Assembly (NCBI GenBank): GCA_032358255.1
Contig: JAULBX010004443.1
Span: forward strand, 186,001-250,000
Source: Heterotrichella gracilis
Lineage: Eukaryota > Sar > Xanthophyceae > Tribonematales > Xanthonemataceae
DNA: 64,000 nucleotides
Direction: 5' to 3'
Part shown: positions 167 to 60,354 of the stretch, one piece after another
Layout: each line of letters begins with the position of its first letter
Numbering within the stretch: position 1 is the stretch's first letter
Program-made: the position numbers and the translations under genes
Notes under the pieces: model-generated
Told to the model about the DNA's origin: nothing
What the model saw: only the letters and a program-made list of their open reading frames with translations
Databases searched by the model: none

Positions 167-1940
167 AACCCTGATCACGTTGACCGATGGTTGCATACTG
201 GACCACGATGGTGTGGTCACCCGCTGCCATGCCCTCAACCAAAGCCACGCCCACGGTGTTGCCTTTCCCAACTGCAACACAGGGCGGTGTTAGGGTTCAG
301 TCAAGGGTAAGGGTTTAGGGTTTCGGTTCAACATGGTGTTGCCCTCCCCAACTGCAACACAGGGCAGTGTTGGAATTCAAGGCCGGCATGGTGCTGCTGG
401 CCGACATGGTGCTGCTGCAGCTTGGGTCTGGCCTGCCGGCAGCACAAGCAGGGTGTAGGGTTTTAGGTTTAGGGTGAAGTGTGACCATATTGCTGCCGGA
501 GGTTTGTCAGGCCCGCCTTCAGCACAAGCCGCTTATAGCCAAGGGTTAGGGTTTTGGGTTTAGGGTCAACATGTTGCTGTCGGAGGGTTGGTCTGTCTCG
601 CTCCGACAGCAACATGGCCACGGGACCCACTTGACTTGATATATGTACATGCCTCGCAAGCACATGCCACCCAGGCAAATGCCTCGCAGGCCAGGTTCGG
701 GGTTTAGGGTTTAGGGTTTAGAATTTAGGGTTTGAAAGCCAAAGCAGGCCCATGTTGATGCATGCACAGCGCAGGGCATGCACAATCGGGTACTGGACGC
801 GCCTGCGCCTGCCACTCACCAAGACTACCTATTCGCACCACCACCTGGTCGTCTATGAGGAGCGCAGCCTCCTGATACTGGTACTGCAGGTTGACGCTAA
901 ACACGTAGTCGCCCGCGGTGGGCACCAGCAAATACCCGCTGAACCTCACGGCAAAGGCCCGGTTCCAAAAGTAATTGGGCCACAGCTGGTCGCCCCACCC
1001 CCTGGGCGCTGCGGGGCTGCTTTGGTTGACACCTGACCCGGGCTCCCTGCAATTCTCCTGGAACATGCAGGTGTCGGAGGGTTCCCCGGTGGGGTTGGAG
1101 GTATCCACAGGCCACGGCCACACAAAGCTTGGCTCGGCGATGACGTCGCTGAAGTCCTTGTCACGCAGGAGAGGCTCCGTGTCGTACCTGGGGGAGGCAA
1201 CCAGGCCAGGTATATCCATGAGCATGCAAGCAGGTCAAACGTAAAGCAAAGTTGAATTAACTCATTTTTGTGTATTTTTGTTGTCACGCAGCAAGGGCTC
1301 CTCGTCATACCTGGGGGAGGCAAACAGGGCAAGGTATGCAGGAGTTCAGCAGGCAAGCAGGCCAAAAACCAATATATGTACGTGTATTTTCCCCTTTTTT
1401 GAAACGGTTTGCTTTGTAAAACTCTCCTAATTTTAATAATTTTCTTCCTTGTTGGGCAGCAGGACAGAACTTTGGCTGGGCAACGGCGTCACTGAAGCCC
1501 TTGCCTTGGAGGGAGGGCTGCGCATCACACCTGGGCGTATTACTTGACGTCAATACTTGTGTACCCATTATTTAACTTTATATTTTTGATACTGAGACCC
1601 TAAACCCTAAACTGTAAACCTACAACGCCGTTTTGAACCGCAGGCAGGGCCCCACAGCGTACTTGACACACGCCATACAGATTATCCATGCTTAAATGTA
1701 TCCGGTATCTTGTGACCCGCATGCAGGGCCCCACAGCCACTTACCTGACACACGCCAGCATGTCCGCATAAGGGAAGCACCAGTTGCTGCCCGGGTAGCG
1801 GCGCGAGAACATGCCGTTGTTCAGGTTGTCCTCATAGATGGCACCTTCCCCGGGTGGAGAGGGGAATGTCGAGGAGAGAACGCAGCCCAGGGTGTAGCCG
1901 GGGGGGTCGAGCAGCTCCCAATAGTCTGCATGTAAGCCAT
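167..1940 (-). CDS. PA14-domain protein (partial gene model)
   Basis: Three exons are supported on the minus strand: 1940-1745, 1187-820 and 271-167, with phases 2 and 1 agreeing at the junctions (AG+G, G+TT). Together they give about 223 residues of a PA14-like beta-sandwich. The start is GLHADYWELLDPPGY, the middle has the typical FSGYLLVPTAGDYVFSV core and the ALLIDDQVVV strand, and the end is a VEGMAAGDHTIVVQY strand. PA14 domains usually bind carbohydrate and sit in secreted or cell-wall proteins. Upstream exons (signal peptide) and the true 3' end were not found, so the gene is partial; the last donor, at 166, is a guess based on GTAAGA. All three exons have decayed copies of their edges in the flanking introns. 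The family call is inferred from pattern alone. Confidence 0.6.
265..358 (-). repeat. Exon-edge echo, PA14 last visible exon
   Basis: The acceptor side of the 271-167 exon (CTGTGTTGCAG followed by TTGGG, read on minus) is repeated with its splice AG at 351/352, 80 bp upstream in the gene sense. The two copies differ at only a few positions and are separated by TTTAGGG-like strings. Confidence 0.75.
385..620. repeat. Decayed tandem repeats with telomere-like strings
   Basis: The motif AGCACAAGC preceded by a CTGCCGG-like stretch recurs at 441 and 521, and TAGGGTTTT-GGTTTAGGGT recurs at 456 and 547, giving a period of 80-91 bp. The stretch lies in an intron of the PA14 gene and holds no exon that I can recognise. 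Confidence 0.6.
695..735. repeat. Interstitial telomere-like TTTAGGG run
   Basis: Three adjacent TTTAGGG units and a fourth imperfect one occur inside a PA14-gene intron. This is the densest run in the window. Single or paired units occur in many other introns. Confidence 0.8.
1160..1540 (-). repeat. Exon-edge echoes, PA14 second visible exon (3 copies)
   Basis: The true acceptor edge is at 1188/1187. Decayed copies of the acceptor plus roughly 30-50 bp of exon lie upstream in the gene sense, with edges at 1311/1310 and 1531/1530. Both keep CAG. The farther copy still encodes a recognisable KGFSDAVAQP version of the exon's KDFSDVIAEP. Confidence 0.8.
1640..1765 (-). repeat. Exon-edge echo, PA14 first visible exon (donor side)
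   Basis: The donor edge at 1745/1744, with flanking GGCGTGTGTCAG and GTGGGGCCCTGC, is copied 82 bp downstream in the gene sense at about 1663/1662. The copy has lost the ideal donor. Confidence 0.65.
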
Positions 1941-2049
1941 CTGCGGTGCACACGCACACGCGCCTTTGAGAGCCAGCCAGGAAGGCGGCACAGGCTATAG
2001 GGTTCACAGCATGTGAGTGCCAACTCGGGTTACCAAGGGTGCGTGATTG

Positions 2050-2135
2050 CCCTGCTCAGGACTCTTGATGGAGTGCCTGACTACCCTGCTCAGGGTTCTG
2101 ACGGGAAGCATGAATACCCCTGATCAGGGTTGGCA
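2050..2135. repeat. Three imperfect CCCTGCTCAGG repeats
   Basis: CCCTGCTCAGGACTC, CCCTGCTCAGGGTTC and CCCCTGATCAGGGTT follow each other at about 40-bp spacing, each preceded by a GATG/GACGG/AAGCATG stretch. Confidence 0.6.
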
Positions 2136-3810: not shown

Positions 3811-3882
3811 CTATATGCATGCATTGAGCCTATTTAGCTAGTTTTGAAACTATATGCATGCATTGGGCCTAGCTAGTTTTAT
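3811..3882. repeat. 40-bp tandem duplication with TGCATGCAT core
   Basis: CTATATGCATGCATTG-GCCTA-TAGCTAGTTTT occurs twice in tandem. The TGCATGCA palindrome recurs throughout the spacers of this window. Confidence 0.75.
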
Positions 3883-4324: not shown

Positions 4325-7300
4325 ATGGGGATGCACAGCTGCAGGGGTGTCCTGCTGCTGGCGGGTTCAGCAGCCTCGATAGCTCACACCCTCCTTGCTC
4401 TGGCAGCCTTCTGTGTTGTGGTGGCAAGCCAAGGAGACAGAAACTCGCTGCACAAGGGCGCACTACCTATCTTGGGAAGCCAGTTTGTGTACAGTCACCC
4501 CGCAACCAACCCACCAAGCACCAATGCCTCGGTGGAACAACCGCCCGAGGACTTCCCCCCCCTCTTCCAGACCACCATCGACCTCACGGGCTTTGACGCA
4601 GCCTCTTATGACAACGAGACTGGGTCAGCTGACTTTGGCCACATAGTGCTGCACAACGTGGTCTTTGCGCCTGGGAACCGCATCTTTGCCTTCCTCCCAA
4701 ATGTGGTCGGGGGCGCACTGGAGGATGTACCGGACGTGCTGTTTGTGCGCACTGGCAATAAAGCCAGCCAGATATTCAGTGAGTGAGCCAGACAAAAACC
4801 CTTCCAGCTGCACCCTGCCATGTTGCATGGCCACCCAAATCACAGCGTTGGCATGCGTGAGGATGTTCATCACCTTGGTATTGCTACTCCCTGACCCTTG
4901 AACCCTCCATCACAAACCATGTCTGCTCTGTGCCCATACCCGTGCCCTGGCCTGGTGACACAGCCTATGCCCGGTGCAGTCTGTCCCAACCCCACCGTCA
5001 GTTACCCCATCTGTACCCCAGTGCTGCAACCCAACCTGCCCTGCGCCCTGGTTGGTTCGGTCCATGCCCGTTGAAAAATGGTTACACAGCTTCCTCCTGG
5101 TGCTCCATTCCAATCCCATCCTGTGCCCTGTGCAGTCTGGACCATCCCCACCGTCAACGGCTCCATCTCCATCCTCAACCAAAACGTCCCGCTGCCATAT
5201 GGCAAGATACGCGACCTGGGGGAGTTTATTCCCTCCTGCCAGATAATCAAGCCTGTGTACATGCTCTGTGGGGCAAAGCCCACGCAGGATTTCTACAACT
5301 ACTTTGGGGATTCGGTGCTTCCCAGCTTCCAAATTTTGCGGGAGCTTGGGATCCTGCGCACGCGGGAGTGCCCTGACTCAGCCACGCTCAATGGGACGGA
5401 CGGCTGCTACTACCCTAGGGGGGTTATCATTGAAAACCCAGATGAATATAAGGCAAGTCGGCTTTGTAGGTGCATGGCGGGGTATGTTGTGGAACAATGT
5501 GTAATGCGCACGTGGGACCCATTGTTGGGCGCTTGGAGGTCACATTGTGGTGCTGTTATCGGGGGCATGTTGATACCCCGCAAGGTGGGCACGGGTTGGA
5601 GGGACGTGCATGCTTGACGGTGGTGCTGGCTGCAAGTGGCTGGCGAGAGCAGGCGACGAATTAGCAACAGGTGGCCAAATGATCCACGATGCTGCGGTGC
5701 CACTGCCACCACTGCCTGAGAGTGCACGCATGCCCTCCATGCATAACCCCCACCCCTCATAGCTCTCACCCCGTGTCCTCACCCCCCACTCCTCCAGATC
5801 CTGTCCATGCGCAACACCATCTGGACCGACAACCCCGCGCCCCACCTGATTCCTTACCTGGCCTCCGACGTGGGAAACCTGCGCAACATGGAGGGGTGCC
5901 ATGTGCGCCACCTCATCATCGGCAGGCCAAAGCTGCTCACCTTTGACCGCCCAGACTTTGAGGAGAAGCTGAGCGAGCAGCAGGAGGCTATGGATGTGGC
6001 CTTGCGGTGGATGCGGCAGAGCCTGATGCACTGGCAGGCGCGGCCTGAGGCGCCCCCCAGCAACATGTAGGTCCCAGGTTGTGGGCATGGGGGTGCATGG
6101 CAGCAGCGCATATGCGGTGTGGTGGTGCATTTAGGCCAAGTGGGCAATGGCTGTGGGCGTGTGGGCGACACCCTAATCAAGGGTTTTCACTTTGCATCCG
6201 TTGGATCACAGCTGGCGGCACATGCTTGCGCATGCCGAAAAGGGTCGGATACCGGCTGGCCACCCACAATATGCCTGCGCCGTGTAATGGCGTCATTACA
6301 TTCCCACATAGCCGTCCACCCCAAACCACCACCGAGACACCCCCCCGCTCTGCCCCTTGTCCGCAGTACCCTCCCCCCCTTGCCCCCTTCCCCGGTTATC
6401 ACCTACGCCTCCCGCCTGCCCCCCCGCCTGCTGCTCAATGAGAGCCATGTGCGCGACCAGCTGGGCCAGGCGCACAGTACCGTAGTGGGCAGCGTGGGGG
6501 TGGACACCAGCCTGGAACACGTGCTCAAGGTGAGGAAAGTGCAGGGGAGGGAGGGGTGGTGGTGGGCAATTCATGCAACTCAATTGAGTGGTGCCGGGCA
6601 TCGTGATGCTACGGGGCATCGTATTGCGGTGTCGCCATGGCGCGGTGGGCAGCTTATCGCGGTGGTGTCATATTTGGAGCTGTATTGCGCATCAGGATAC
6701 CCACTGCAGGTGCTTGGTGAGACTTACCCCGTCAAGCTTAACAGCAAAGCCCAAACTCTAAATTGAAACCTAAACTCTAATATTTAAACGTCACTCCTGC
6801 AGGTGCTTGAGGGCACTGACGTGTACTACGGCATGACTGGGTCCCCCTGGTCCATGGTCATCTTCGTCAGGAGGGGTGCGTCGTGTGTGCAGGTGAGCGT
6901 GTGGAGATGGGGAGTGGGGGGAGGATCATGTTTGTCAGGCGGGATTGCTGTGTGCGCATGTGTTTGTGTATCTGTGGTTGTGTGCGCATGTCTGCATGAG
7001 CGCATATGCATGTGTGATATGTACTTATGTGGTTGGGGGGAGGGGGGTGGCTTTATACTTGCTAGGATGCGAGGATTGGGTGCATGCGAATGGAATGCCA
7101 GGGTTGAGCACTTGGTACTTATCATCATGCGCTACTGGTTGGGGCAAAAGGGGGTCATTGTGGTAGCAAAAACACCCCACGTCAATTGCCATTGCTGTTG
7201 CTCCCCTCCTCAAAGTCTCCCCTTCCTTTCCCCTGCAGCTCTTCCCCTACGGGTGGGACAAGTTCGACGCCGTCCTCGCCTCCCGCCAGGCCACCAGCCT

Positions 7301-11884: not shown

Positions 11885-14800
11885 ATGTCGACAGCGGAGC
11901 AGGGCCCACAAGGGGTAGAGGAGGATAGGAAAGTTGGTGTAGCTAGAGAGGATGCCAAGGGGGGCGATGCTCAACCTCAGGAGGTGGCAGAGGTCAAGGC
12001 CGCCAGTGCACAGCCCGATGAGGCCACCACCAGTGGCCAGCAACAAGGGTATGTGCCCTTAGTCGGTTGATTTAGTCTAATGCTTTCCAGCAATACAGCC
12101 AGATTAGCAGTCATTCTTGCACATACAACGCCAAGCCCTTGCTACTGAGGTTTTGCCCTTGCTACTGAGGTTGTGCAGAGAGTTCTTTTCCTGAACAGCA
12201 TGGAAGTGCATTTTCATGTGCAACATGGGCAGCTGGTTGCATTGAATCTTGTGTTTTCCCTTTGCCCTAGGTGGGAAGAGATGGGCCTTGATGCGCGGCT
12301 GGTGCGGGCCATGGCACGGCAGGGCTTTGCAACCCCCACCCCTGTGCAGGCACAAGCGATCCCCCTGGCGCTGCAAGGTAAGGGCGGGTGGGGTAGTCTT
12401 GGTCACTTGCATTATGCACGTATCTGAGTACGGATCCGTGATGTGCATCCCATCAGTACATTTTGAAGCCAATTTAGTACCCCCCCAGCGTACTGCCTAC
12501 AGACGTCACCCTAGCACATTAAGGAGAGGTTCAAGTTGATACAATCTCATCCATGCGCTCATGGCATGTATATGTGGATGGCTGCAGGGCGGGACGTTGT
12601 TGCTCGGGCGCCCACAGGCAGCGGGAAAACAATTGCCTACCTCATACCCCTGCTCCATCGGGTGCTGGGAGGAGCTCGAGGGCGCACCCCTTTGCAAGCC
12701 CTCATCCTCCTCCCGACCTCCGACCTGTGCATGCAAGTCAGGGCGGCAGCAGCCTCTGTGACTGAGGGCCTAGGGTCCAGCATCAACCCTACTGTGCTGG
12801 CGGGGGCAACCGCGGCCACCAAGGTCATGTTTGCCACAGCTGGGCAGGTGAGCAGCCACTTTGGACGTCAGGAAATTACTACACAGCTGGGCAAGTGAAG
12901 GGCAACTCCTTGGTCCAGCACGAAAGCCTTCTTGTTGGATATATTTACCGGTATACTAAAAAAATACAGTAAACATTCTTTAGTCAAGGCCTGGCGGTTG
13001 CGTGTTGATCATTTTGTTTAAAACATTATGCGGATTGATATGGCCAACTCTTGGATGCTTGTCCACACATACATGGATGATGACCCCCTCCCCTGTCCCA
13101 CCCTCCTCTCCCTCCCTTGCAGGTGGTCGCCGCCACCCCAGGCAAGATAGCCAACGCAGTCAAGGAGGGGGTGGTGGGCAGCGACGTGCTAAAAAACCTG
13201 CAAACCCTAGTACTGGATGAAGCCGACCTGCTGCTGTCCTATGGATTCCTTCAAGACCTGCAAACCATCGCCCCCTTGGTATGCTGCCCCTAAATGACCC
13301 ATAACCCTAGACCCTAACCTGCAGTTACACACACAATTACGTTTCCAGGAAGGTAGCATGCACCTGCGGTACTCGCGTGCAGGATCATTGGGGGCCATGC
13401 ACCTCTATCGGCTATAATGCAATGCTAGGTGCCATCCCCGTACTGCACCCATGTAGTGCATGCCGTGAGTTGGAAATTGCATTTACCTTTTTCCCCCCGT
13501 CATTGTCCCCGTCTAGGTTCCCCGCACCTGCCAGTGCCTGCTCATGAGCGCCACCATCAACGAGGACGTGCAGAAAATCAAATCCCTGATGCTCCACAAC
13601 CCACAATCCCTGGACCTGCTGGCGCCTGGTCCTCACGCAGCGGCTGGGGATGCCACAACCCAGACTGGGTCCCCGGCAGAAATCTCCCACTTCAGCCTCC
13701 ACTGCCCCCCTGAGGACAAGCTCCTGCATATACTGGCACTTATTAAGCTAGGGGTGGTCAGGTGCGGCTGGAGTGTCGACTATCTGTGGTGCCTCACATG
13801 TGCACTTAGTGTGTCTTGGTGGGTTGTTTAGGGTTTAGGGTTGGCATTCAGGGAAGGTGGTGACCTAATTTGGGGTTCTGCATGATCGCATCCCTCCCAC
13901 CTTTCCGTCCCACCCCCACATACCCCTCGCTTATCTGTACACGCCCGTCCCCCCGTGCTACAGCAAGTTGTAACAAATGTCGCCATGCACCTGCACCTCC
14001 CCTCTTCTTTCCTTCCACACACACATGGTCATCCTCCCTGACATTGGCATCCCCTTACACCCCCTCCTTTCCTGCCGCAGGAAGAAGATCGTCGTGTTTT
14101 GCTCCAGCGTGACGGCGGGCATGCGAGTGCGGCTGACCCTAGAGGGTTTCGGCGTCCGCGCCGCGCTGGTGCACCCGCAGCTCCCGCTCAACAGCCGGCA
14201 GCACGTGGTGTCAAACTTCAACAGGGGGCTCACCGACTACCTGGTGGCTGTAGGTGAGCGGGGTGGTGTTGGGGGCTTAGGGTTTTGTAGGGTTTTGAGG
14301 GAATGGTGGCGGGTGGGATGGGGTGGGGCTCAATAGGGTGCACCATCTACCTGGTGGCGGGGGGTGAAGGGGGTGGTGGGTGTGGGGGTGACGGTGTTGG
14401 GTGATATGGGTCCACATGGCTCTGAGGTACAATATATGTAATGTGCATTCCCTGTGGCTGATTTGCAGTTCCTATGACTGCTCCCCATGCCCCACCTGCG
14501 GCGCCTACCACTGACCTTGGCCATGTGCCCGCGGCCCCTCATTGGGTGCCTAAATACCCAGCATTTGCCCTTTACCCACAGACACCGCCGACAGCCCCGC
14601 ACCCAAGCCCGCACCCAAGCCAGTGCCTGCCAAGGGGAAGAGGAGGAAAGTGAAGCACGACGAGGAGGAACCGGATGTGGAGTCCAGCGTGGCACGGGGG
14701 GTGGATTTCAAGGGGGTGAAAACCGTGGTCAATTTCGACCCCCCCTTCAGCATCTCCAGCTACATCCACAGGGCAGGGCGCACGGGCAGGGCGGGCAATT

Positions 14801-16356
14801 CCGGGACGGTCATCTCCATTTTGACCCCCGAGGATGCGGAATTCGAGTCCCAGCTTGCAAAGGCAGTGGCAGAGATGCCCTCTGGGGAGCAGGTGGGTAC
14901 AGCGCGGCACCAGGCATTGCAATGCAAACATCCCAAATGGAGACACATTAGACCCTTGGCCCCAGCTCTGTGGTCAACATGTGGCCGCAGTCTTGGTCAC
15001 GGCAGGGTGATCTAAATGACCTGCAGTGGATAGCTTGCACCCTTCACTGTAGGCTCCATCTGGCCTTTGTGGAGATGATGGCAGGGGAAGGGGGGACATC
15101 AGGGAAAGGGGCCAACTGGGGTTGGAATGGCGGGGCGGGGGAGAGGGAGCATGTCAGATTGGAGACATAGAGCCTGGCGCAATCAAATGAGACTAGCCTT
15201 GCAATGCCCTGCTCCACCCATGTGTAGGGTACCCTGAACCCCACAAGCATCTCCACCCTCAAACCCTAGCGCTTACCGTCAAACCCTTAAGCCTCTGCCT
15301 CCCCCTTTCACCAGGATGGCGAGCAAGACAGCAAGCAGCTGAGCGAGTACCTGTATATAGTACCCTGAGGAAAACAGCCCTTAAAACCCTACTGCACTCC
15401 CCCTCCCCACAGGATGGCGAGCAGGAGAGCAAGCAGCTGATTGAGTACCCCCAGCTGCGCAAGGCAGGGGTGGAGGCGCTGAGGTACCGAGGGGAGGACC
15501 TCATACGCTCCCTCACCCCCGCGGCCATCAAGGCAGCACGCGCAAAGGAGCTGCGCAGCGAGCTGCTGGCCTCACAGGCGCTCAGGGACCACTTTGAGGT
15601 AAGCATTAAAATGGACGGAAGCGTAAGAATGGAAAAGAAACGTCCCTGTTCCTCCTCATGGGGCTTGCTTGGGGACCAGGTAGCGGAGAGTACTTGTGCA
15701 GTAAGCCCTCCGCCCGCTATGTCCCCTACCATGTCCGCCCATTTGGTTTCACACCACAAAATGTGTGTCCACAAACGTTACATACAAAGGTACCAGCCTT
15801 TATTACCCCCCCTCTGAAAGTTTTCCTCCACCCCCTCCCACTGCAGGAACGCCCCGGCGACCGTGCCCTCATCACCGCCGCCATACCCCAGGGGGCAGCC
15901 TCAGCCGCCCCTGCGCACCTGAAGCACATGCCGCAGTACCTGAGGGGCAAGGCGGGGAACGTAGCGGTCACGACGCGCGCAGGTGGGTCTTTGGCGGGGG
16001 TGTTGTGTGGGGTTATGGGGGTTTGTGATAAGGGATTGTTCACTTGCCCAGCGGCACATAGCTCACCCTGCTGGTGCATAAAATAGGTTGAGAAACATTA
16101 AATTCTCACTCTCCCCCTTGACGACCTGTATGCAGGCTCAGGGCAGAGGCTTGGGGCCAGGAAGCGCAAGCCAGGGCAGCGGGTGGACCCCGTGAAAGGG
16201 TTTTTGCACAAGGGGAAGAAGCGCAAGTCCACGTCAGGGGAGGAACTCACCGAGATGGAGAAGAAGGTGATGGCCACCAAGCCCAAGGTGAAGCCAAAGC
16301 AGGGCACCTTCGTCCCCAAGCAGAACGTGCGGCGCAGCAAGGGGAGGAGCAGGTAG
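11885..16356 (+). CDS. DEAD-box RNA helicase, Dbp9/DDX56 family
   Basis: Ten exons: 11885-12048, 12271-12377, 12588-12847, 13123-13278, 13517-13761, 14081-14253, 14582-14892, 15413-15598, 15847-15982 and 16136-16356, giving 652 residues with every phase agreeing. Helicase motifs in order: Q motif [17 protein letters not shown], motif [13 protein letters not shown], motif II as [14 protein letters not shown], motif III SAT, ARGVDF, and motif [12 protein letters not shown]. The [10 protein letters not shown] context and the basic insert ([14 protein letters not shown]) between the ATD and ARGVDF segments are typical of Dbp9/DDX56 (plant RH16), a nucleolar ATPase for 60S subunit assembly. The C-terminus is Lys/Arg-rich, fitting nucleolar location. 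The N-terminal 55 residues are acidic, low complexity and poorly constrained. Confidence 0.93.
12135..12178. repeat. 21-bp tandem duplication
   Basis: CCCTTGCTACTGAGGTT occurs twice in direct tandem in DDX56 intron 1. Confidence 0.8.
14225..14375 (+). repeat. Exon-edge echo, DDX56 exon 6 donor
   Basis: CACCGACTACCTGGTGGC with its following GGTGAGCGGGGTGGTG is echoed 110 bp downstream (CACCATCTACCTGGTGGC at 14341, then GGTGAAGGGGGTGGTG). The echo keeps a GT. Confidence 0.65.
15305..15452 (+). repeat. Exon-edge echo, DDX56 exon 8 acceptor
   Basis: The acceptor CAG and the first 37 nt of exon 8 (15413) occur 98 bp upstream at 15315 with 33 of 37 matches. Using the echo acceptor would shift the frame and reach a stop before the true exon. 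Confidence 0.85.
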
Positions 16357-23964: not shown

Positions 23965-24047
23965 ACGGATCCGGAACCAAACACACCAATCAGCTTTTAG
24001 ACTGGCTAGTCTGGCACAAGGAGCTGTGGAAACATGGCAGCTGCGGT

Positions 24048-24078
<31 letters not shown>

Positions 24079-35300: not shown

Positions 35301-38300
35301 ACGGAGAGGCGCGAGGTAGGTAACCTGGGGTGGGACGGGTGCATGCAGTATTTGGTACCACACACGAGGTGGAGGGATTGAATAAGGGGAGAGGCATGGG
35401 CTGAGAGGACATCCTTGCATGGCAACCACACCGGCGTGTACATGCAATGCCCATGCGTGTGTATCGCGCACACCGGCGAGCGCATCGTCTATTACACACC
35501 CCACCTCCTTTACAGGCTACATTCCCCCTGTGGCGCACAGCACAAATCGTGCACGCCCGCATCTTGCTAGAGGCCAATTTAAAACCCTCCGCTTTTCTGC
35601 AGGTGGCCTCAAATGGGAATGGCAGCCATGCCCGGGTGTCCCTCAAGCCCTCGGGATCCACCCACAAGTGGGCGCTCACCGAGGACACCTTTTCCAGCGG
35701 GCTGGTGGGTGCCAAGGCGCTCAACCTGGCCGAGCTGAGGGTCAATATTCCAATTTGGATCGGGGTGCCCGCCTCCGTGGGCCTGCCATTTTCCACATTT
35801 GACCAGGTGCTCAGGGACCCCGTGAACCAGGGGGTGGCAGGGGACATTGCGGCTGCGCTGCGGGAGGTGGAGAGTCAGCAGGGGCACGATGGTGAGCGGA
35901 GGGGAGGGGGAGTTACGGGTGTGCGAGCGCGGCATGCCTCACAAGTGGGTGGTTGGCTAGCTATGGGTGATTATCTGGTAGCTGTGCGGAGGTGTGTGAG
36001 AATCTGGTTGCCATGCTTTGAAATGTGTGGTGTCCTGTTAGCCATGATCCTGCCTAGGCAAGCGGGAAGGCAAGTGGGTTACTGTGCGACCCTTATGCGC
36101 ACACCTTCCTCCACCCCTTTTCACCCTCCTTGCTCACACCCCTTCTCCTCTCTCTCCCCCCCAGGCGTCCCCCCTGCCCTTGGCCACGTGCGCCACCTTG
36201 TGTCCACACAGCTCAAGGCGCCTGCCCCCCTGGTGGAGGAGGTGACCAAGGCAGCGTACTCGGTGGGGGTCATCCCTACTGACACATGGGAGGTGAGGGA
36301 GGAAACCCTACTGTTGTTCAGGCGAGGGAGGAAACCCTAATTATCTCAAGGTTTCCCAGTACAAGGCAGTGCGACTTGCAAGTGCATGGGTGCGCTGGGC
36401 TCACAAGGGTGCTCGCAAGGGTCTTATAAACGACCCCAGTACACATGTAAACTACATTTCCCTGCTTCTACTCCAAACACTTGGACTGCATCGCCCCAGT
36501 TGCACACCCGCATTGACACTACCCTCTCGGCCCCCTCACCCTCTCCCCCATCATCCAATACCTCTTGACCCCCTCTCCCACCCCTGCCCCAGTCCCCCGC
36601 CTGGTCCGACACCTGGTCTGCGCTGTGCGGCGTGTGGGCGTCAAAGTGGAGCGAGCGCTCATGGCTGTCCCGCAGGACCTGGGGCATACCCGACCAGGAC
36701 CTCAAGATGGCGGTGCTGCTGCAGCAGGTGAGAAGACAGAAAGAATTCACTACTGCTATGTATGAAATAAAGTGACGTACTTTTGGAGGTAGGGGGGATG
36801 CAAGGTACCTTGTAGGTCCGGTCCCTGCCGGTAAGGCCCGAGGGTTCATGAGCACTAGTCATCCTTTGCTGGTGCTGTGCTGGCAACTTCAATAAATAAC
36901 ATGCACAACCCTTCTTTTAACAGGATCCTATGCTTAACCTTCACACTTAACCCCCCGTTCCCCATCACAGGTGGTCCCCGGTCAGTACGCCTTTGTGCTG
37001 CACACCGCCAACCCCTTGACTGGCAGCAAGGACGAAATGGTGGGGGAGGTGGTGGTGGGGCTGGGGGAGACGCTGGCAGGCAACTACCCAGGCAGGGCGC
37101 TGGGCTTCAAGGCGACAAGAGGTAAGGGTGTAGGGTTTAGGGGTTGCACAGGGTTCATTATTGGCAGGCAAATAACCAGGCAGGTAGGGTGAGGACATAG
37201 GGCAACCAGGTTGAGGGTGCAGATTTTGGGGCTGATCATGGTTTTATGCGCGTCTAGGTACGTTGCTTGCCTGGGTTTGTATTCTACTTGTGTGCTTGGC
37301 TTTTTGCCGGTGCGGTGATTAGGGAAGTCAAGCGGCCTGCATACACAGAGCCAGGTATGATTGCAATTTACAAGAGAGGTTCCAAGCCGAGCACTGGCCA
37401 TGCACTTGTGGTGCAGGAATGCTGTTGCCCATACTTGCGCACCTTTCCAAGTCTGAAACACTCCTCTTTCCCCCCCTTGCAGCCAACGGCCAGGTTGAGA
37501 TTGAGTGGCTGCCCAGCAAGCGCATGTGCATGACGGCAGGGGAGAAGCCCACGCTCATCGCCAGGTCAGACTCAAATGGGGAGGACCTGGAGGGGCTATC
37601 GGGGGCAGGTAAGGGCCGTGGTGGTGCAATCTTAGCAATGTTATACGCAAACTCTAAACCCTAAAATTTAAACCCTAAACAGACTCAAATCAGGGAGGAT
37701 CTGGATGGCCTTTTAGGACGGTGGTGGTACAGCACGGTATATGCAAACCCTTGACCCTAAACCCTAAGCATACTCAAAACGGGGAGGACCTGGAGGGGCT
37801 GACGGGGGCTGGTAAGGGCCTTGTTGGTAGGGATGGTGCTAGGACCTGGTCTGCATTGTGGCGCTGGTAGGGTGGGGTAGGGGTGTGTTTGGATCAATCA
37901 TTGCCTGGGCGACAGGTTTGGAGGGAGGGAGGCGATGGGCAAGGGACATACAGCGGCATGGTATGACTGCAGGCGGGTGATTTGAAGCCAAGCCCTCTAC
38001 AGCAATCGCGAACAGCCTCCTCCCTAATGGAAGGCGTACGGCAGCGCTCTCCACTCACTTCAACCCTCACAAAGCCCCAAGACACTCACACGCTGTACAG
38101 CTCTTGCCCCACACACCTAACCCCCCTTGCCCCCTGCCCTCCCAGGCCTGTATGACAGCCTTGCGGTGGGTGGTCTCGAGCATGGCACCGCTGACTACAC
38201 CAACGAGCCGCTGCTGTGGGATGATGGATTCCAGCAGGAGCTGCTGCGGGGCCTGGTCAAGGTGAGGGGGGGATTAGGGTATTCAGTGAGGGTGTAGAGT

Positions 38301-38780
38301 TTGTGGTGAGGGTTCCAGCAGGAGGGGATGCAGGGCCTGGTCAAGGTCAAGGGGGTGCTAGGTTGTAGGGAGAGGGCTTAGGATTTGTGGCGAGGGTTCC
38401 GACAGGATTGCAAGGTGTGTGTGTGGGAAGAGGGGACTGCTGGTTTATAGGAATAGTATTCAAAACAAACTTGTGCTGGCAATGGTTGTGGGTCAGGTGA
38501 TGGCATCCTATGATTAGGTTGGAAGGTCAGGGTTTCCAGCCGGTGCTTTTGCAGGTGCTGTTGAAGGTGAGGGGGGTTTGTGGTGTATGGTTGTAGGCAC
38601 TGCCCTCCCTCCCCGCTTCCTCCACTCATTCCCTTGTCCCCCCCCCCTTGCCCCCAGGTTGGCGAGGCGGTGGAGGCTGCCTTCCAGGGGGTGCCCCAGG
38701 ACATCGAGGGTGTGTGGGTGGAGGGCAAGTTCTACGTGGTGCAGTCAAGGCCACAGATCATTGCCACGCCACAGAAGTAA
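26374..38780 (+). CDS. GWD1: Alpha-glucan water dikinase (starch phosphorylation), start codon not located
   Basis: Twenty-one exons with agreeing phases (26374-26505, 27050-27275, 27769-27893, 28256-28310, 28648-28815, 29179-29392, 29845-29984, 30282-30428, 30754-30946, 31426-31661, 31953-32126, 32393-32689, 34661-34851, 35174-35315, 35603-35891, 36165-36292, 36593-36727, 36971-37121, 37483-37608, 38146-38261, 38658-38780) give about 1,168 residues. After a transit-peptide-like lead come two CBM45 starch-binding domains (YEDAGITV..LVFVLKE and YEEVGVKV..FVFVLKE), then the dikinase body with QWHQKLHTNTSSEDITICEAY. The catalytic histidine is in DVLSHVAIR, near residue 760. The C-terminal nucleotide-binding domain has RSDSNGEDLEG-SGAGLYDS and DIEGVWVEGKFYVVQSRPQ. 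The enzyme transfers the beta-phosphate of ATP to glucose C6 of starch in the plastid, opening granules for breakdown. At least one 5' exon is missing from the model. Confidence 0.93.
26830..27085 (+). repeat. Exon-edge echo, first CBM45 exon acceptor
   Basis: CCCCCAG followed by GTACGAGGACGCCGGC occurs at 26841 and again at the true exon, 27050, 209 bp later. The echo soon diverges and runs to a stop. Confidence 0.8.
27150..27500 (+). repeat. Exon-edge echoes, first CBM45 exon donor (3 copies)
   Basis: GGAGGGCTGGG...GCTGCCAAAG then GTGGGTGGTTTGG (true donor 27276) is followed by decayed copies with donors at about 27373 and 27482, spacing 97 and 109 bp. All three keep AGGTG. Confidence 0.75.
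27845..28085 (+). repeat. Exon-edge echoes, second CBM45-1 exon donor (3 copies)
   Basis: GTTCC-GTGCAGCTCAGGCAGAGGAGG occurs at 27846, 27945 and 28043 (period 98-99 bp). The second copy is nearly identical to the exon end including AAGGTGGGGCGGAGGG. The third is worn. TAGGGTTTAGGGTT lies between. Confidence 0.9.
28960..29245 (+). repeat. Exon-edge echo, CBM45-2 last exon acceptor
   Basis: CCCAG then GACGCCTGCCCCTC (true exon 29179) is pre-echoed at 28971 (CCCAG then GATGTCTGCCCCTC), 208 bp upstream. The likeness runs on for about 60 nt (VFGLKKVDAWVW against VFVLKEIDTDMW). Confidence 0.8.
29672..29892 (+). repeat. Exon-edge echoes, dikinase exon at 29845 (3 copies)
   Basis: CCCCCAGGGCATGTCC-TCCTGTTCACCTGGCTGC occurs at 29846 (exon), 29769 and, worn, 29680, with spacing 77 and 89 bp. 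The upstream copies have lost the acceptor AG context. Confidence 0.85.
30385..30628 (+). repeat. Exon-edge echoes, dikinase exon ending 30428 (3 copies)
   Basis: CATGCGCAGCAA-GG-A-CAGG-AGGGGCAC occurs at 30392, 30491 and 30587 (period 99 and 96 bp). The second copy keeps GGTTAG where the true donor is GGTGAG; the third has none. Confidence 0.9.
31203..31492 (+). repeat. Exon-edge echoes, dikinase exon at 31426
   Basis: A 61-nt block beginning right at the acceptor (CCAACCCCGTGCACCTGCC...) occurs at 31308 and 31426, with about 58 matches and both preceded by C-rich tract and CAG, 118 bp apart. A third remnant (CACCTGTGGATCCTCA) lies at 31205. This is the best preserved echo; the upstream copy reads open but 118 bp is not a multiple of three. 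Confidence 0.92.
31810..31980 (+). repeat. Exon-edge echo, dikinase exon at 31953
   Basis: GCGACGGCGGCTCCCGCG at the exon start is matched by GGGATGGCGGCTCCTGCC at 31861, 93 bp upstream. A weaker third copy is near 31812. Confidence 0.6.
32690..34660 (+). other. Longest dikinase intron (1.97 kb), AT-richer than its surroundings
   Basis: Lies between the LIKYLEPMVAKE exon and the exon that carries the catalytic histidine. It is T-rich with no recognisable exon, repeat array or element; base composition differs visibly from neighbouring introns, which may mean inserted DNA. Confidence 0.6.
37565..37815 (+). repeat. Exon-edge echoes, dikinase RSDSNGEDLEG exon (3 copies)
   Basis: ACTCAAA-GGGGAGGACCTGGAGGGGCT-CGGGGGC occurs at 37570 (exon), 37683 (worn) and 37772 (well kept, with GGTAAGGGCC donor). 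Copies are separated by CCCTAAACCC strings; spacing 113 and 89 bp. Confidence 0.9.
38225..38585 (+). repeat. Exon-edge echoes, dikinase exon ending 38261 (4 copies)
   Basis: TTCCAGCAGGAG-TGC-GGGCCTGGTCAAGGTGAGG occurs at 38229 (exon), 38313, 38397 and 38534. The first two steps are exactly 84 bp each. The last copy keeps a strong AAGGTGAGG donor. Confidence 0.85.
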
Positions 38781-46200: not shown

Positions 46201-49200
46201 TCACGCATACTGGTGCGAGAGCTTCCCCTCCCTCACAATGTAGTAATCCTCCTGGAAGGCCTTCCCATCAATCCAAGACTGGATGATGTCGCATGTCCCC
46301 TGGGCGTAGCGGGCCTGAAAAGGGAATGGCATCCAATAAGATCCAGTGGATTACACCACCTGGGCGGCTTGCTTGCACAGTGCCATGCACGGCATGCACT
46401 GAAGCTATATGCACAACTAGCAGTGTGTTATTTACGTAACAGGTTTCTGAGGTATAACAAATGCCACATTGAACATATTTTACATCATGATATAACACGA
46501 GTCCACAACGTCTTGCCATATCCAATAATCTGATGCAGTTTATTCCATTCAACCTGGTCAAGCATTGATTACCTGCGCATCCAGCGTTGTGCCTGACAGG
46601 TGGGGCGTCATGGCGTGGTGGGGCATGGTGCGCCAGGGGTGGTCCTTGGGGGGGGGTTGGGGATACCACACATCTCCACCATAGCCTGGGGGCACAAGAA
46701 AACAGGGTCACAAGAAAACAGGGTCATATCAGAATGCAACAATGAAGAATCCTGGGATGAAAAGCGCAACACAATGTCAACCTCAAACCCAATTGGAACA
46801 GCTATGAATACTGCCCTCTATATTGTGCTTTTCGATTTAGGCCAGCCTACTGCAGTCACAATCGCATGATGTATGACAAACACATGGATGCAATTGCAAA
46901 CAGTGCTGCATGCACCATGTTACGCTGCTGGTTAGTAACCAGGCCAATGCAATAAGCACAATCCCCCACCTCAAGGTAACAGAGTCACCTGCACAACTCA
47001 CTCACCCCTGCTCCTCCCTCCTGCAAATCCTAACCCCTTCCCTCCCCCCTCCCTGCCCAGCACTCACCCCCCAGCTGGCCAGATTTGCTTGCCTCCACCA
47101 CCGCATCCACATCCACAATTGGTCCACGCGCGTTGTTCACCAGGTAGGCACCCTTCTTGAACTTACCCAGGAGCTTCTCGTCAAACATCCCCCTGCCAGT
47201 GAAAAAATTAAACTGAGGGCAGCGGGAAATAAGGTTTATAAGGGTCCCACAGCTTGGTAGGATGGTGCAAGCATATCAGCAAGATGGTACAGGCTGATGA
47301 GTATACACAAAACCTCAGCCCAGGAACCTGCCGTGCCCTTGCAACTGCACATGCCCTGATTATGATATTACTCCCCTGTCTTAAGCACCATGCCTGTTAA
47401 AGGATACAGGTCAAGGGCTGCGGTTGTGTTGCTATTCATTATTGGCTTTCTAACATTAAACATTATTTTTGTAATTTTCAATTGAGCTGCAATTGCTACC
47501 TTGTCTTGTCGCTGAGCGGCAGGTTGATCGACACCACATCGCACTTGGAGACAAACGCCTCCAGGTCGGGCTCAAACTCTGCACCCAGCTCCTTTGCCAC
47601 GGCCTCATCCAGCGGGTGGCGTGCGTAGTACACAAGGTGCACGCCAAAGGGCTGCGGGAATGGGGCGGCTATCAGATCAGTGCATCATTGGAAAGTACAT
47701 TAAGGCCACAGGCCACATCTTGAGATGTTAAGGCCACAGGCCACATCTTGATACGCGCGCGCTTGACAGGTCGAGGGAAAGCGAGGCAGCCCACTGATAG
47801 TATGCCAGGCTGTTGTTGCATTGGGACAGAAAAACCCTATTAACTTAATATTTCAATATCCCAGATGCAGAATACATGGACACAGTCCCATTGCACAGAG
47901 AAGATTGCATTGCTTTCTTTACTTCAACCCCCACCCACTCACCTTGAGCCTCCTCATGAACTCCACACCAATGCGCCCGCCGCCCACACTCCCCACAGTC
48001 TTGCCCTCCACATCCCTGGCGCGGGACGCCACCGCTGCTACGTTCCACTCCCCATCGCAGGCCTGGCGGTAGCCTGGCAGGAAGTTGCGCACCAGCAGCA
48101 GCACGCGCATCACCTCATCCTCCGCCACACTCACCACATTGCTGCCTGGGGGGATAACATGTATATGTAAAAGCTGTATTGAACAGTACATGTCAGCTGT
48201 TTGGCAACCAGGGCAATTTATGTGCCACAGCCAAGTGTCCCATAATATGTAGCTTTCATGATAATTGCTTTCGTTTTATAGTTTTGAGTCTGTGCCTGGA
48301 AAGACTTTACAGATGATCCTCCTCCGCACCGTGTATCCCTTAGTTTCCAGCCATATGCTGGGTGATGTCGACATGCAGTCACCACTAGCTTGAGACGTGT
48401 AGCTAATTCCTGTAGGCACTGTCAACCCTACACCCAGACCCTCAACCCTTGTCATCTTACTCCCCACCCACTTTCTCCCCGCCTACCTGTCACCTCCGCC
48501 ACTGTAATCCCCTTGTCAGCAGCCGCGTGCAGGTCGATGTGGTCCGACCCAATGCCCGCGGTGACCGCCAGCTTGAGGCGCTTGGCTGACTCCAGGCGCT
48601 CGCGGGTGAGGTAGGCGGGGTGGAAGGGGGTGGTTACCAGCACATCGGCATCCACAATGTGGCGAGCAAACTCTGTGTGAGGTGGGGAGGGGAGGGTGTG
48701 GATGGTTATGTGGAGGACACTATTATGACCAAATAGCATTAAAATCATGACTGTGCTGGGTGCAGGTGAGCATGCTGGATGGGGTGATGCGCGGCTCAAC
48801 CCAAAGCCTTTGTGTGCATTTGGGCTCACCCAAATGCACAACACGTGTGCAAGGTCAGCCAACAACACCTGCACCAGGCACAACTTGAGGCTATGCGCAT
48901 GGCTCCAAGCTACCAAGCATATATGCGCAGCGCCCCAAATCATCCAAGCATACCAGCATGCAAATTCTAGCCTTCTATTTGTATTACGATAAACTTAGAT
49001 ACATCTGCCTTTTACCGCCCCTCATCAATGCCACAGACCTGCATGGCTACACACCAGCGCTGTGCTGCCCTGCACCTCCTCCTCATCCCCTCCTCACCAC
49101 CCCCCACCCACCTGAATCATCCCCCTCCTTGTCATCCGTCACCACCACCTCAATCCCCTTGGGCTCCAGCACCTCCCGCAGCCCCAGGGCATTCTCCGCA

Positions 49201-56075: not shown

Positions 56076-59000
56076 ATGGCATCAAAAAGCGAGGCCCAGG
56101 ATGGGTCTGGCAACGGTGCCCCAGGGAAGCGCCACATGGCGCAGGAGATGCTGGACTTCATCAACGCCAGCTGGACCCAGTTCCATGCAGTGGGTGAGTG
56201 CCATTTGTGTGGGTTTAATTGAACCATTGCGCTACACCTGCAGAGAACTTTTTGGGTGGACGCACTACTGTGCCGCCGTATGCCCGCTGCTGCCTGTAAA
56301 CACTCAGTCAAAAGCTTTGTTACCTTCTGTAAACCCTACCATCCTCCGAGCATCAACTGAAAATCTACCGTTGTGCACAAACCTTGAAAACCCTACCACC
56401 CTGTTCAAAACCTCACAACCCATGGCGCAACTCCGTACCACCCCAGTGCTTCAACACCCCACCCACGCGCACCCCCATACCCCCCAGAGGAAGCCAGCAA
56501 GCGCCTGGTGGCCGCGGGCTTCACACACATTGCTGAGCGGGACGCCTGGGAGCTGACGGCTGGGGGGAAGTACTTCTTCACGCGTAATATGTCCACCTTG
56601 GTGGCGTTTGCGGTGGGTGGGAAGTACCAGGCGGGCAACGGCTTCCACATGCTGGGGGCGCATACGGACAGGTGGGGGGAGAAGAAATCCTAAGCTAGGG
56701 CTACAGGGTGCAGACAGACAGGATGGCAGGGAAACCCTTAGCTAGGGTTCCACCTGCTTGGCACACACGCTACCGCCCTATGGCCATTCCCGCACACGTT
56801 CCTTATTACACACCCACACCATGGCCATCCCCACCCACCACAGTTATACCTCCCACTGCCACGCACTCACACAGTGGGCAAAATCATCAATCACCCTGAA
56901 CCACCCAAATTTGTTGATCACAATCCCACCCCCCCTCCCCCTCCAGCCCCTGCCTGAAGCTGAAGCCCGTGAGCAAGGGTACCAAGGGGGGCTACGACAT
57001 GGTGAACGTGGAGTGTTACGGGGGAGGCCTGTGGCACACCTGGTTTGACCGCGATCTGGGGGTGGCGGGGAGGGTGCTGGTGCGGCAAGGGGAGAAGCTG
57101 GTGCACAAGCTGGTGAGTAGGGGAGAGAACTGGGGGAATGGCTGGGGCCTGCGGAGTATTGCACGTGGGGGGCAGTGAGGACATTGCAACTGGGCAGCGG
57201 TGTTGATCGCAGTGCATCGGTTGGGGTTCACATGATGTTGCATGGCCCAGGCGCACACAGCAGCCATGGAATGTCACCCGCCGGTGCGCATGCATCCACC
57301 CATGATGCATGAAAGTTTCATGATGAAACACTTGCACCCTCCTGCGCGGCATCGAGGCATGCACGGAACCCCCCGCACCACTCACATGCGGATCGCATCA
57401 ACACCCCCTCCAGCATACCCCAGAAACATGAAGGCACTGGACCACCACTCATACCACCCCATCACCACTCACCCACCCCACCACCCGCCCCCTCAGGTGA
57501 AGATCGACAAGCCCATCCTGCGCATCCCCATGCTGGCCATCCACCTGCAGCGCGACCTGTACGAGAAGGGCTTCAACCCAAACAGGCAGCAGCACCTGGC
57601 GCCAATCATCGCCACGGCAATCAAGGTGGGTGGCGGCGAGGAGAAACCCTAGTGTTAGCTCTGAATCCTAGATAAGGGTGAACTGAGAGCCGTGACCTCA
57701 ACAGGCAGCAGCACCTGGCGCCCATCATCGCCACGGCGATCAAGGTGGGGAATTCTAGATACTCTTCTGTAAACATGAAAGATTTAGTGGGCTGTGGATT
57801 GCTAGAATTGATGATGGTGGGATGAAGTGAAGGCCCTGGATCCAGCAATACCTTACGCCGATTATCCCAATGGCGGTTCAGGCGGGATGGTGGGAGGGGA
57901 ATCCCCAACCTTGACCCTTCCTCCACCTCACGGCACAGTCAGCCATGCGAGGACCAGTAATCACCCACCCACTCACTTATAATCCCATGTAAATGCTACT
58001 TGGCTGATGTGGGCTTAACACATGTCGTGTGCATCAGAATCGGTTCAATAGTATGAAGCATAGGCTGGGAAATTAAGCGGGGCCGTGGAATTGCCTGTAT
58101 CGTGTGTGGCCATCGATTGAGCCCCCCCACCCCCACCGCAGGATGCAGTGAACCCTCCCCAGGATGGCGCCAGCCCCCCTCCTTCTGGCGCTGACGAGTC
58201 TCGGCACGCCCCCCTGCTGCTGCGCCTGCTGAGCGCCCAGCTTGGGTGCGCCCCTGGGGACATTGTGGACCTTGAGCTTAACGTGTGCGACACGCAGCAG
58301 GGGGTCATCGGAGGTGGGTGGCGGGTGGGCGGGGTGCGGGAGGTGCGGGTGGCCATTGCTGTGGCATCTTGATGCAGTGTGGTTGGATGGGTTGTGGGGA
58401 GTGGCGGTACGGTACTTCCCCCAGGGGTAAGCGGTGGCAGCATTGGGTTGCCAAGCCTGCAGTCCTTACATGCTGCGCATCTGAAGGTATTTGGTGGTGG
58501 TGGTGGGTTGGGGATGGACCCTATTCAATTCCCAGAACACCCTATTCATGCCCACCACAACGCCTTCCACGGCTGGGTTGCCACCATCTGCCGCACTGAG
58601 ACAGTGCCAGACAAGGGATAGGTCCTGGACTGGGGTGAGGCATACCAGGCGTGCTAGTCTCGCTTTAAAGCTGAAAAACCCATACTGCAATGCACACACT
58701 TGCTAACTTACCCCATGCGCAAACATGCAAACTTACTTACAACACCCCCCCTGCCAGGCGTCGAGGACGAGTTTGTGTTTGTTGGCCGCCTGGACAACCT
58801 GTGCATGAGCTTCTGCTCGCTCCAGGCGCTGATAGACAGCTGCAGCGGGGAGGGCGCGCTGGACGGGGAGGGTGCGGTGCGCGCGGTGGCGCTGTTTGAC
58901 AACGAGGAAGTGGGGTCAAGCTCAGCGCAAGGTGGGGGACTGGGGCAGGGCGTGGGGCAGGATTTGGTGAGGGGTTGCTTCAGCAACACCGGCGAAGAGT

Positions 59001-60354
59001 AGGGTTTTGGTGCAGGGTTTGGTGCGGTGGTGATGACAATCTGCGCATGGACCCCATGCACCCTCTTCAACTCCCTCCCACACCATTATACTCAACCTGT
59101 GCCTCTGGCCACTCTCAGACGCCTGCGGCCATTCCTGCAGCGCTCCTGTCTTGCCACCATTTGCATGGCCGCATGCACAGCACCACAAATCCATCCCCCC
59201 ACATTTCCTCTCCCCGCCTCCTGCCACTTGAACCCCACCCCCTTTACACACCTCTCCTGCCCCTCCCAGGCGCCAGCGGCCCCGTGATGTGCGACACCAT
59301 CACACGTGCGCCTCCGCCACTCTCAGCACCATCGGCGCCACCGTCCGCGTGTTGAATATATCCATTCCTGGAACTTGTTATTGACAGGGTGCATGCAATG
59401 CAAACCCTTTCATCACCCTTTACGTTCCTCTCCCACCCGCAGCCACTTGACCCCACCTCCCACGCACCCCAGGTGCTGGCGGCCCCGTGATGCGCGACAC
59501 CATCACGCGCGTGACCGCCGCCCTGTCGCCCAACACCGAGGGCGCCACCATCCGCGCCCTGCAGCGCTCCTTCCTAGTCAGCGCTGACATGGCGCATGCA
59601 CTGCACCCCAACTACCCCGACAAGCACGACCCGCAGCACCAGCCGCAGTTCAACAAGGGCCTGGTCATCAAGCACAATGCGAACCAGCGCTACGCAACCA
59701 CCTCCATCAGCTCGACGCTGTTCAGGTGGGTGGGGTGGGGGAGGTTGGCATGGGCATGGCATAGGCATGGCATTTGGCACGGCAGTGCAAGGCATGGGGT
59801 ATCTGTCGCCGGTGCAAGCGCCAGGGCGCCAAATCCCGCTGTAGGGTAGGCATGCATAGGCAACTGATGCCTAGCTGAGCACGCTTTTATAAATGGGCAT
59901 GTTTGTCACAGGCAATAAAAGCCCTGCTGCAGATCCATCACCCAAGGCCATCCCTGCTCACACAATCCTCATCCTGCGCGGCCGTTCCAAAACCTGTCCC
60001 AACCCCCACCCAAACCCTCACGCTGTGCCCCCCCGCAGGGAGGTTGCCCGGCGCCACGACATCCCTGTGCAGGAGTTTGCCGTGCGCAATGACATGGCCT
60101 GCGGGTCCACCATCGGGCCCATCCTGGCCTCGGCACTGGGGGTGCGCACCATCGACGTGGGGGCGCCTCAGCTGGCCATGCACAGCATCCGGGAGATGTG
60201 CGGGGTGGAGGACGTGGACTACACCTACAGGCACTTCCTGGCGTTTTTCAGGGACTTTTCTGAGCTGGACAAGTGCGTGGACTTTGATTCGCTGCCCCCG
60301 CCGGACATCCAGGGCACGCTGGCGAATGAGGCCGCCTGCGGGCACGTCCACTAG
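56076..60354 (+). CDS. DNPEP: Aspartyl aminopeptidase (peptidase family M18)
   Basis: Eight exons, 56076-56193, 56488-56671, 56947-57112, 57497-57625, 58142-58313, 58758-58931, 59473-59725 and 60039-60354, give 503 residues with agreeing phases. M18 signatures in order: [16 protein letters not shown] with the first metal-binding His, [53 protein letters not shown] with the Glu pair, [27 protein letters not shown], and [36 protein letters not shown] with the last metal-binding His. The enzyme removes N-terminal Asp and Glu from peptides as a large dodecameric dizinc complex in the cytosol. No targeting peptide is evident. The start Met at 56076 is followed by [11 protein letters not shown] and gives the expected length. 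Confidence 0.95.
56655..56755 (+). repeat. Exon-edge echo, aminopeptidase exon 2 donor
   Basis: ACGGACAGGTGGGG followed by AATCCTAAGCTAGGG is echoed 50 bp on by ACAGACAGGATGGC followed by AACCCTTAGCTAGGG. The echo has lost the donor. Confidence 0.6.
57580..57885 (+). repeat. Exon-edge echoes, aminopeptidase exon 4 donor
   Basis: AACAGGCAGCAGCACCTGGCGCC-ATCATCGCCACGGC-ATCAAGGTGGG occurs at the exon end (donor 57626) and 119 bp later (donor at 57745) almost unchanged. A very worn third copy may lie at 57841-57880. Confidence 0.9.
59262..59560 (+). repeat. Exon-edge echo, aminopeptidase exon 7 acceptor
   Basis: CCAG then G-GC-GGCGGCCCCGTGATG-GCGACACCATCAC occurs at 59271 (echo) and 59473 (exon). 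Likeness runs for about 85 nt and both carry a good acceptor; spacing is about 202 bp. Confidence 0.85.

Follow-up and report, generated by a model that had tools for sequence, protein, structure and literature searches.

Tandem duplications of exon edges, associated with telomere-type repeats, in introns of Heterotrichella gracilis

Genes and gene models of the window

The stretch of DNA analyzed here, the window, comprises 64 kb of the genome of Heterotrichella gracilis (Xanthophyceae; assembly GCA_032358255.1, 68.5 Mb in 903 contigs) and corresponds to positions 186001-250000 of contig C46 (JAULBX010004443.1). Five of its genes were modelled by hand; they have 43 introns, many of which contain decayed copies of the adjoining exon edge, termed echoes below. 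An earlier reading of the letters alone, referred to as the original prediction, had proposed such echoes; the present analysis confirms them and associates them with telomere-type repeats. Exon borders were set by reading the sequence (in-frame exons, GT-AG borders, one GC donor), which gave 86 borders. The hand-built models are a PA14 gene (2446-172, minus strand), whose PA14 score lies slightly below the Pfam cut-off; a GT61 gene (4331-7607, plus strand), in which two exons were scanned and no family was found, GT61 being a label from the original prediction; a DDX56 gene (12271-16356, plus strand) with a DEAD-helicase domain, where DDX56 as such is again an earlier label; a dikinase gene (26374-38780, plus strand), identified from its homologs; and an aminopeptidase gene (56076-60354, plus strand) with an M18 domain. 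The best matches of the conceptual dikinase protein include the green algae Chlorella, Myrmecia, Coccomyxa and Trebouxia at about 52% identity, with no near relative among the matches. An Rfam scan of the window gave no match at gathering scores.

Several peculiarities of these gene models were observed in passing. The GT61 gene has a GC-AG intron at 5453, with the donor GCAAGT. Intron 12 of the dikinase gene (32690-34660) measures 1971 nt and is T-rich in appearance, the other 19 introns ranging from 243 to 544 nt. The N-terminal part of the same gene (26374-29390) looks like a module present twice, as two similar exon sets, of which the aligned homologs seem to have one.

In total, 164 kb of host sequence from one genome was compared, i.e., the window and two held-out regions of 100 kb together, c46 (on the same contig) and c5. 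Exons of the held-out regions were predicted by a hidden Markov model (HMM) gene finder trained on the five hand-built genes; on these training genes, 74 of its 84 border predictions proved correct, and it recovered 74 of the 96 true borders. At least one contig, C1 (894 kb, about 36% GC), has a bacterial look and was left out of the host DNA; one listed piece of it holds close-packed intronless genes of Bacteroidetes-like appearance, which may belong to a bacterial associate or a contaminant.

Exon edges recur in the adjoining introns

The five genes were subjected to banded self-alignment (offsets 20-500, score at least 20), with 40 dinucleotide shuffles of exons and introns separately as a control. 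This yielded 34 alignments against a shuffle mean of 0.05, and echoes were found in all five genes, as the original prediction had stated. A splice border lay inside 25 of the 34 alignments, at 19 of the 86 distinct borders, with donors and acceptors affected alike; the predicted number of about nineteen cases is thereby reproduced. The copies span an existing border and are located in the intron beside that border, the other copy carrying no exon bases, and 18 of the 19 echoed borders have a spacing of at least 60 bp. The same kind of echo is present in both held-out regions. Across the three regions, a score of at least 20 and a spacing of at least 60 define a set of 32 echoed borders among 224.

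The position of the copies at exon edges was supported by two further tests. With only 50 exon letters as the probe, a match in the adjacent intron was obtained in 27 of 204 edge tests, where shuffles predict 0.2, and in 2 of 121 interior tests; exon interiors do not match introns as often as edges do, the comparison on which the original prediction hinged. In a circular-shift test, run after removal of low-complexity alignments (as was the intron-only count below), the window gave 24 border alignments against 8.6 expected, with 0 of 1000 shifts reaching 24, and c46 gave 8 against 2.9, with 15 of 1000 shifts reaching 8. Four further c46 alignments (31520, 16638, 39280 and 34069) were scored as non-border; by eye they lie at borders of exons that the HMM missed or mis-ended, and they were left out of the count of 32.

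The nearest echo is spaced by 77-125 bp at 21 of the 32 borders, close to the predicted 77-123 bp, and the special group proposed at 93-99 bp did not emerge (4 of 32). Spacings modulo 3 are distributed 9/11/12. The idea that the copy nearest the exon is best preserved describes 5 of the 10 borders with more than one echo; there were 3 ties or near-ties and 2 reversals (window 37608, c5 26821), so it is not a strict rule. An origin of the echoes as assembly artefacts is judged unlikely, because border alignments span identities from 0.61 to 0.97 and a paralogous gene carries an echo at the corresponding border.

Two finer regularities were considered and dropped. The exon share of the copies looked regularly centred on the border, yet seemed compatible with a uniform position and a minimum of retained intron, and no claim is made of it. 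A copying of exon and splice site only was suggested by a few young copies; many echoes also match in their intron part.

The echoes listed here were located by self-alignment. In the PA14 gene (minus strand), the exon 4 acceptor at 271 has its echo border at 351, with CCCTAAA units in the filler (252..611); the echoes of exons 2 and 3 are described with the paralog. On the plus strand, the GT61 exon 2 acceptor at 5136 is echoed at 4980 (4961..5168). The DDX56 donor at 14253 is echoed at 14363, with telomere-like filler (14218..14399), and the acceptor at 15413 is echoed at 15315 (15284..15449). The dikinase gene, also on the plus strand, contributes four echoed acceptors: 27050, with its echo at 26841 (26821..27102); 29179, at 28971 (28948..29239); 29845, with two echoes at 29768 and 29678 (29643..29907); and 31426, at 31308 with a unit of 118 bp plus an older partial copy (31184..31490). 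Its echoed donors are 27275, with the echo at 27372 (27244..27424); 27893, with echoes at spacings of 99 and 197 and telomere-like filler (27843..28077); 29392, with a short-spaced echo at 49 bp (29378..29469); 30428, with two echoes (30527, 30623), a unit of 99 and TTAGGG-like filler (30386..30650); 37121, at 37210 (37074..37243); 37608, with two echoes (37713, 37811) and CCCTAAA units between (37567..37828); and 38261, with echoes at 38345 and 38566 (38215..38577). In the M18 aminopeptidase gene (plus strand), the donor at 57625 is echoed at 57744, 93% identical over 55 nt (57576..57749), and the acceptor at 59473 at 59270 (59171..59605). A sixth gene, with HMM-predicted exons on the minus strand, shows a weak exon-end echo (48321..48593; spacing 172, score 20), with the border 6 nt outside the match.

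The border preference exceeds random duplication

Echoes at borders could also result from unbiased tandem duplication throughout the genome, made visible at borders since selection freezes the exon copy and since units of about 100 bp rival the introns in length (median 337 bp). Such geometry alone yields many chance border matches; moreover, the decay of the echoes appears neutral, and the length of the exon part looks, by reading only, consistent with uniform placement, provided that about 35 nt or more of intron is retained. This bias was built into a simulation in which duplications were placed uniformly, the exon copy was frozen and the indel rate was as in the echoes. It returned 1047 intron-only and 658 border detections (61% intron-only), figures in which present intron lengths somewhat overstate the intron target and small indels may overstate the visibility of intron-only copies. 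In contrast, 3 independent intron-only alignments (score at least 20, spacing at least 60; one of them a 31-bp minisatellite) were observed against 32 echoed borders. For intron-only fractions of 0.61, 0.36 and 0.30, the probability of obtaining at most 3 of 35 is 1.3e-10, 2.3e-4 and 0.0024, respectively.

The youngest copies point in the same direction. Five inspected alignments of at least 92% identity all lie at borders by eye, one of them (c46 31520) at an exon read by eye and not HMM-predicted; on the non-border list, only the 31-bp minisatellite (27649) reaches this identity as well. In the self-alignment list of the window outside the five genes, no duplicate of about 100 bp fell in intergenic DNA; besides repeats of short unit, the entries were the coding repeat at 42.8-43.3 kb, some weak matches close to the final MYND gene of the array described below, and the exon-end echo at 48.3-48.6 kb. 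The leftovers of the held-out regions were two c5 minisatellite arrays, a G-rich intergenic repeat (c46 8717), the four borders recognized by eye and a few weak or unclear alignments. Unbiased duplication also predicts no link with telomeric repeats, yet one was observed (see below). We therefore consider it an improbable explanation; the border preference is taken as real, exceeding what random duplication combined with slower decay of the exon half would give.

Introner-like mobile elements place similar sequence in many dispersed introns, and classical intron gain, the Rogers model, proceeds from a tandemly duplicated exonic AGGT. Tandem duplication is a step in common with the echoes, but the copies adjoin one border rather than both intron ends, and only 7 of 111 matches joined different introns, 4 of these linking paralogous genes and 1 linking two introns within a single predicted gene. 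No dispersed element family was found in the 164 kb of host DNA. Either origin is very hard to reconcile with these data and is given little weight.

Telomere-type repeats lie beside echoed borders

The probable telomere unit here is CCCTAAA, judging from the placement of its arrays: they begin contigs C70 and C140, and one lies about 145 bp from the end of C46. Others lie inside many contigs, so that internal runs of the presumed own telomere unit, i.e., interstitial telomeric sequences, are present. Perfect four-unit arrays gave 209 overlapping hits genome-wide. Three of them were fetched: two are flanked by predicted exons on the same strand, in gaps of 211 and 751 nt, and the third sits in a 1552-nt gap. 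Within the 43 introns, AAACCCT occurs 39 times and AGGGTTT 20 times, where shuffles give 1.9 and 1.6; between genes, the density of either word is about 0.1 per kb. Six telomere-unit heptamers exceed dinucleotide-shuffled introns 3-21-fold. The scarcity of telomeric words between genes speaks against simple random insertion.

Within the introns, the repeats are concentrated at echoed borders. A telomeric heptamer lies in the 65 intron bases at the border in 20 of 32 echoed cases and 33 of 192 others (p 3.4e-7, this and the following p-values being only guides, since the two borders of an intron, donor and acceptor, depend on each other). The association holds for echoed donors (13/17 vs 18/95) and acceptors (7/15 vs 15/97). 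Three permuted heptamers, their composition unchanged and the A shifted, showed no link (3/32 vs 9/192, 2/32 vs 9/192 and 1/32 vs 8/192). Three of four words one letter off the telomere unit showed a weaker link (p 2.8e-4 to 4.4e-4), which is what decayed arrays should give; the fourth, CTTAGGG, did not (p 0.12). When echoes were called from exon letters alone, so that intron content could not help the calling, the link remained (15/27 vs 34/177, p 1.4e-4). Heptamers cover 11.6% of the sequence between copies and 4.2% of what remains of these introns, as measured at 31 of the 32 borders, compared with 0.39% of intergenic DNA in the window. Held-out donors agree (5/8 vs 10/61, p 0.0098), as does a whole-intron count in the window (17/17 vs 14/26, p 0.001). 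Neither this TTTAGGG association nor the excess over random duplication formed part of the original prediction.

The repeats are oriented relative to the intron: echoed donors carry 55 G-strand and 20 C-strand units, and 65 of the 66 units at echoed acceptors are C-strand. Such orientation would also be expected if the TTTAGGG/CCCTAAA words were selected splicing signals, for example silencing decoys, with duplications of a generic kind. After donors, the words could act as silencers of the UAGGG type or as G-run enhancers, and upstream of acceptors as branch-point-like signals, CTAA being a branch-point core; in addition, intron ends are enriched in GGG at the 5' side and CCC at the 3' side. 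However, the perfect four-unit arrays exceed the length that a splicing motif needs, and signals alone leave the higher repeat content of echoed borders unexplained. We regard this explanation as unlikely.

Tracts of G or C runs were also considered as the driver, run-dense windows being more often covered by duplicates in each of four zones. This candidate was rejected: run number is equal at echoed and other borders (4.8 vs 4.9; 7.2 vs 7.9), and words of the same composition are unlinked.

Paralogs and decay of the copies

A paralog of the PA14 gene lies about 5 kb to the left on the same contig (C46:179972-181449; L024 3972-5449). Intron 2 measures 557 nt in the window gene and 304 nt in the paralog. 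The window gene alone has an 82-bp duplication at the exon 2 donor (border 1745, echo 1663; 1631..1757, minus strand) and a 123-bp duplication at the exon 3 acceptor (border 1187, echo 1310; 1158..1366, minus strand), while an older echo of that acceptor at 1530 (1129..1535, minus strand) is common to both paralogs. In the alignment, the single donor and acceptor regions of the paralog pair with the window echoes, not with the working copies of the window gene. The window gene appears to have gained two border duplications, or else the paralog would have lost both, gain being the simpler reading. Stepwise growth of introns by tandem duplication across the exon-intron border, as originally proposed, is supported by these introns, which differ by two border duplications and share an older echo, and by the neutral decay described next. 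Further paralog pairs of this kind would date the gain and loss of echoes.

A second, young pair of paralogs was noticed at C46:177381-179620 and C46:183681-185700 (c46 31381-33620 and 37681-39700). Several of their exons are near-identical and their intron edges align, the intron middles hardly doing so, as would be seen if conversion homogenised the exons or if introns turned over very fast.

The decay of the echoes looks neutral, without coding constraint. Over 27 alignments with 1228 positions, mismatch between exon and echo at codon positions 1, 2 and 3 was 0.170, 0.166 and 0.234; 79 of 233 changes were synonymous (0.339), against 0.267 expected if random. Positions 1 and 2 are worn as under drift of the echo, and the third-position excess can come from silent changes of the exon itself. 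Intron halves are 0.56-0.65 identical at 10-30 nt into the intron (anchored random level about 0.53) and thus more worn than exon halves, as expected if both copies drift.

Ten homologs of the dikinase were aligned over its 20 junctions, 10 of which have an echoed border. The median homolog has 0 gap columns at five of these (28815/29179, 29392/29845, 30428, 37608 and 38261) and 1 at 30946/31426; the extra copies are therefore not in the protein and must be spliced out. This conservation, with at most one gap column at 6 of 10 echoed junctions, speaks against the echoes being functional decoy or alternative exons, as do the absence of coding constraint and spacings not restricted to multiples of 3. 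Some echoes do retain an AG with a pyrimidine tract (e.g., c5 53579), but a function of this kind is highly improbable.

Proposed mechanism

We hypothesize that breaks or stalls at exon-intron junctions, tied to telomeric repeats, leave tandem duplications that survive by being spliced out, and we lean towards this reading over its alternatives. Recurrent breaks or replication stalls would hit the DNA at junctions, and their repair would duplicate the local sequence in tandem, mostly by 77-125 bp, with some tens of bases of both exon and intron included. Either telomerase or telomeric DNA could fill the break, or telomeric repeats already present at intron ends could destabilise the spot. One copy would stay the working exon edge and splice site, and the other would be spliced out and drift neutrally, the intron growing by about 100 bp. 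Such a duplication could survive because a border-spanning copy leaves one intact edge and splice site, the rest being removed by splicing. The break or stall, the repair route and the order of telomeric repeat and duplication are what we infer here. In the arrays at 27893 and 30428, the sequence that follows the second copy also looks telomere-like by reading, which would mean that the repeats predate the later duplications.

A stronger version can be offered only tentatively and is itself doubtful: telomerase-assisted repair of breaks preferentially at exon-intron junctions may be the main engine of intron growth here. A broken exon end extended with TTTAGGG would be rejoined with a duplicated edge, so that introns, and hardly intergenic DNA, hold telomeric filler and echoes. 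The G-strand after most echoed donors and the C-strand before acceptors are what healing of the end that bears the real exon would give.

Several observations weigh against the proposed junction breakage. It does not explain why junctions should break. Some young copies (c5 5960, c5 52040 and window 57625) match over only 37-55 nt although their spacing is 90-119, which a plain tandem unit describes poorly. The fillers of the two PA14 duplications absent from the paralog (borders 1187 and 1745) contain no telomeric heptamer. Held-out acceptors showed no telomeric association (1/6 vs 10/63), and the whole-intron count gave no significant link in c5 (6/11 vs 14/37, p 0.49) and only a trend in c46 (4/4 vs 7/16, p 0.09). 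The circular-shift test is weak in c5 (15 border alignments against 8.8 expected, reached by 146 of 1000 shifts), a region whose alignment list consists in large part of two minisatellite arrays. Exons of the held-out 100 kb are HMM-predicted, with the border accuracy given above. At 4 of the 10 echoed dikinase junctions (26505/27050, 27275, 27893 and 37121) the homologs align poorly and are uninformative.

The echoes bear on how introns lengthen and where their sequence originates: for this class of intron sequence the parent, the adjoining exon edge, can still be seen. With copies of varied age, a paralog that lacks two of them and a telomeric clue to the repair route, the question becomes testable by resequencing a single organism and by comparing a relative. 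If breaks do cluster at splice junctions, this would bear on the interplay of transcription, splicing and genome stability.

Other features of the window

A tandem array of four related genes occupies 17350-24180, with pieces 73-83% identical; the one scanned has TPR and MYND-finger domains. A 141-bp coding repeat of about three copies lies at 42832-43263 in a minus-strand open frame. Long minus-strand open frames occur at 61395-63002 (F-box) and 40628-42188 (of similar look, unscanned), with no echo-type alignment in either.

Comparison with known systems

Duplications that cross a border and telomeric insertions at breaks have each been described before. Searches of an open-licence library, subscription papers lying outside them, gave no account of the two in combination, with dense border duplications linked to telomeric repeats.

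The closest single event is found in a potato RdRp gene, where one tandem duplication covering an intron's 3' part together with the 5' part of the exon after it made a new intron with a recruited cryptic donor (PMC4974935). There, as here, the duplication crosses an intron-exon boundary; the potato case is one new intron, whereas the window shows many events in existing introns, at donors and acceptors, with telomeric repeats adjoining. Tandem genomic duplication of an exonic AGGT segment is a reviewed route of intron gain (PMC3443670) that likewise involves duplicated and re-used splice signals, but it makes a new intron from exonic sequence, while in H. gracilis the border of an existing intron is duplicated. 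In Daphnia, neointrons carry direct repeats from staggered double-strand breaks, and repeated repair has been proposed to lengthen introns passively (PMC4202315). Direct repeats and passive lengthening by break repair are shared with our proposal; the exon-shared repeats of Daphnia measure 4-12 bp, in contrast to units mostly of about 100 bp that carry a splice site.

For the telomeric component, the nearest parallel is provided by mammalian interstitial telomeric sequences, which are inserted during break repair; in horse, duplication alone accompanied 3 of 66 loci, and 2 more showed deletion, addition and duplication (PMC7215372). Such sequences also cause instability (PMC6410037). Telomeric units at break sites, which in H. 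gracilis are presumed ones, sometimes with target duplication, link the two systems. In human, 31% of the sites are intronic, compatible with random insertion (PMC7215372); the repeats of H. gracilis, by contrast, cluster in introns and beside echoed exon edges.

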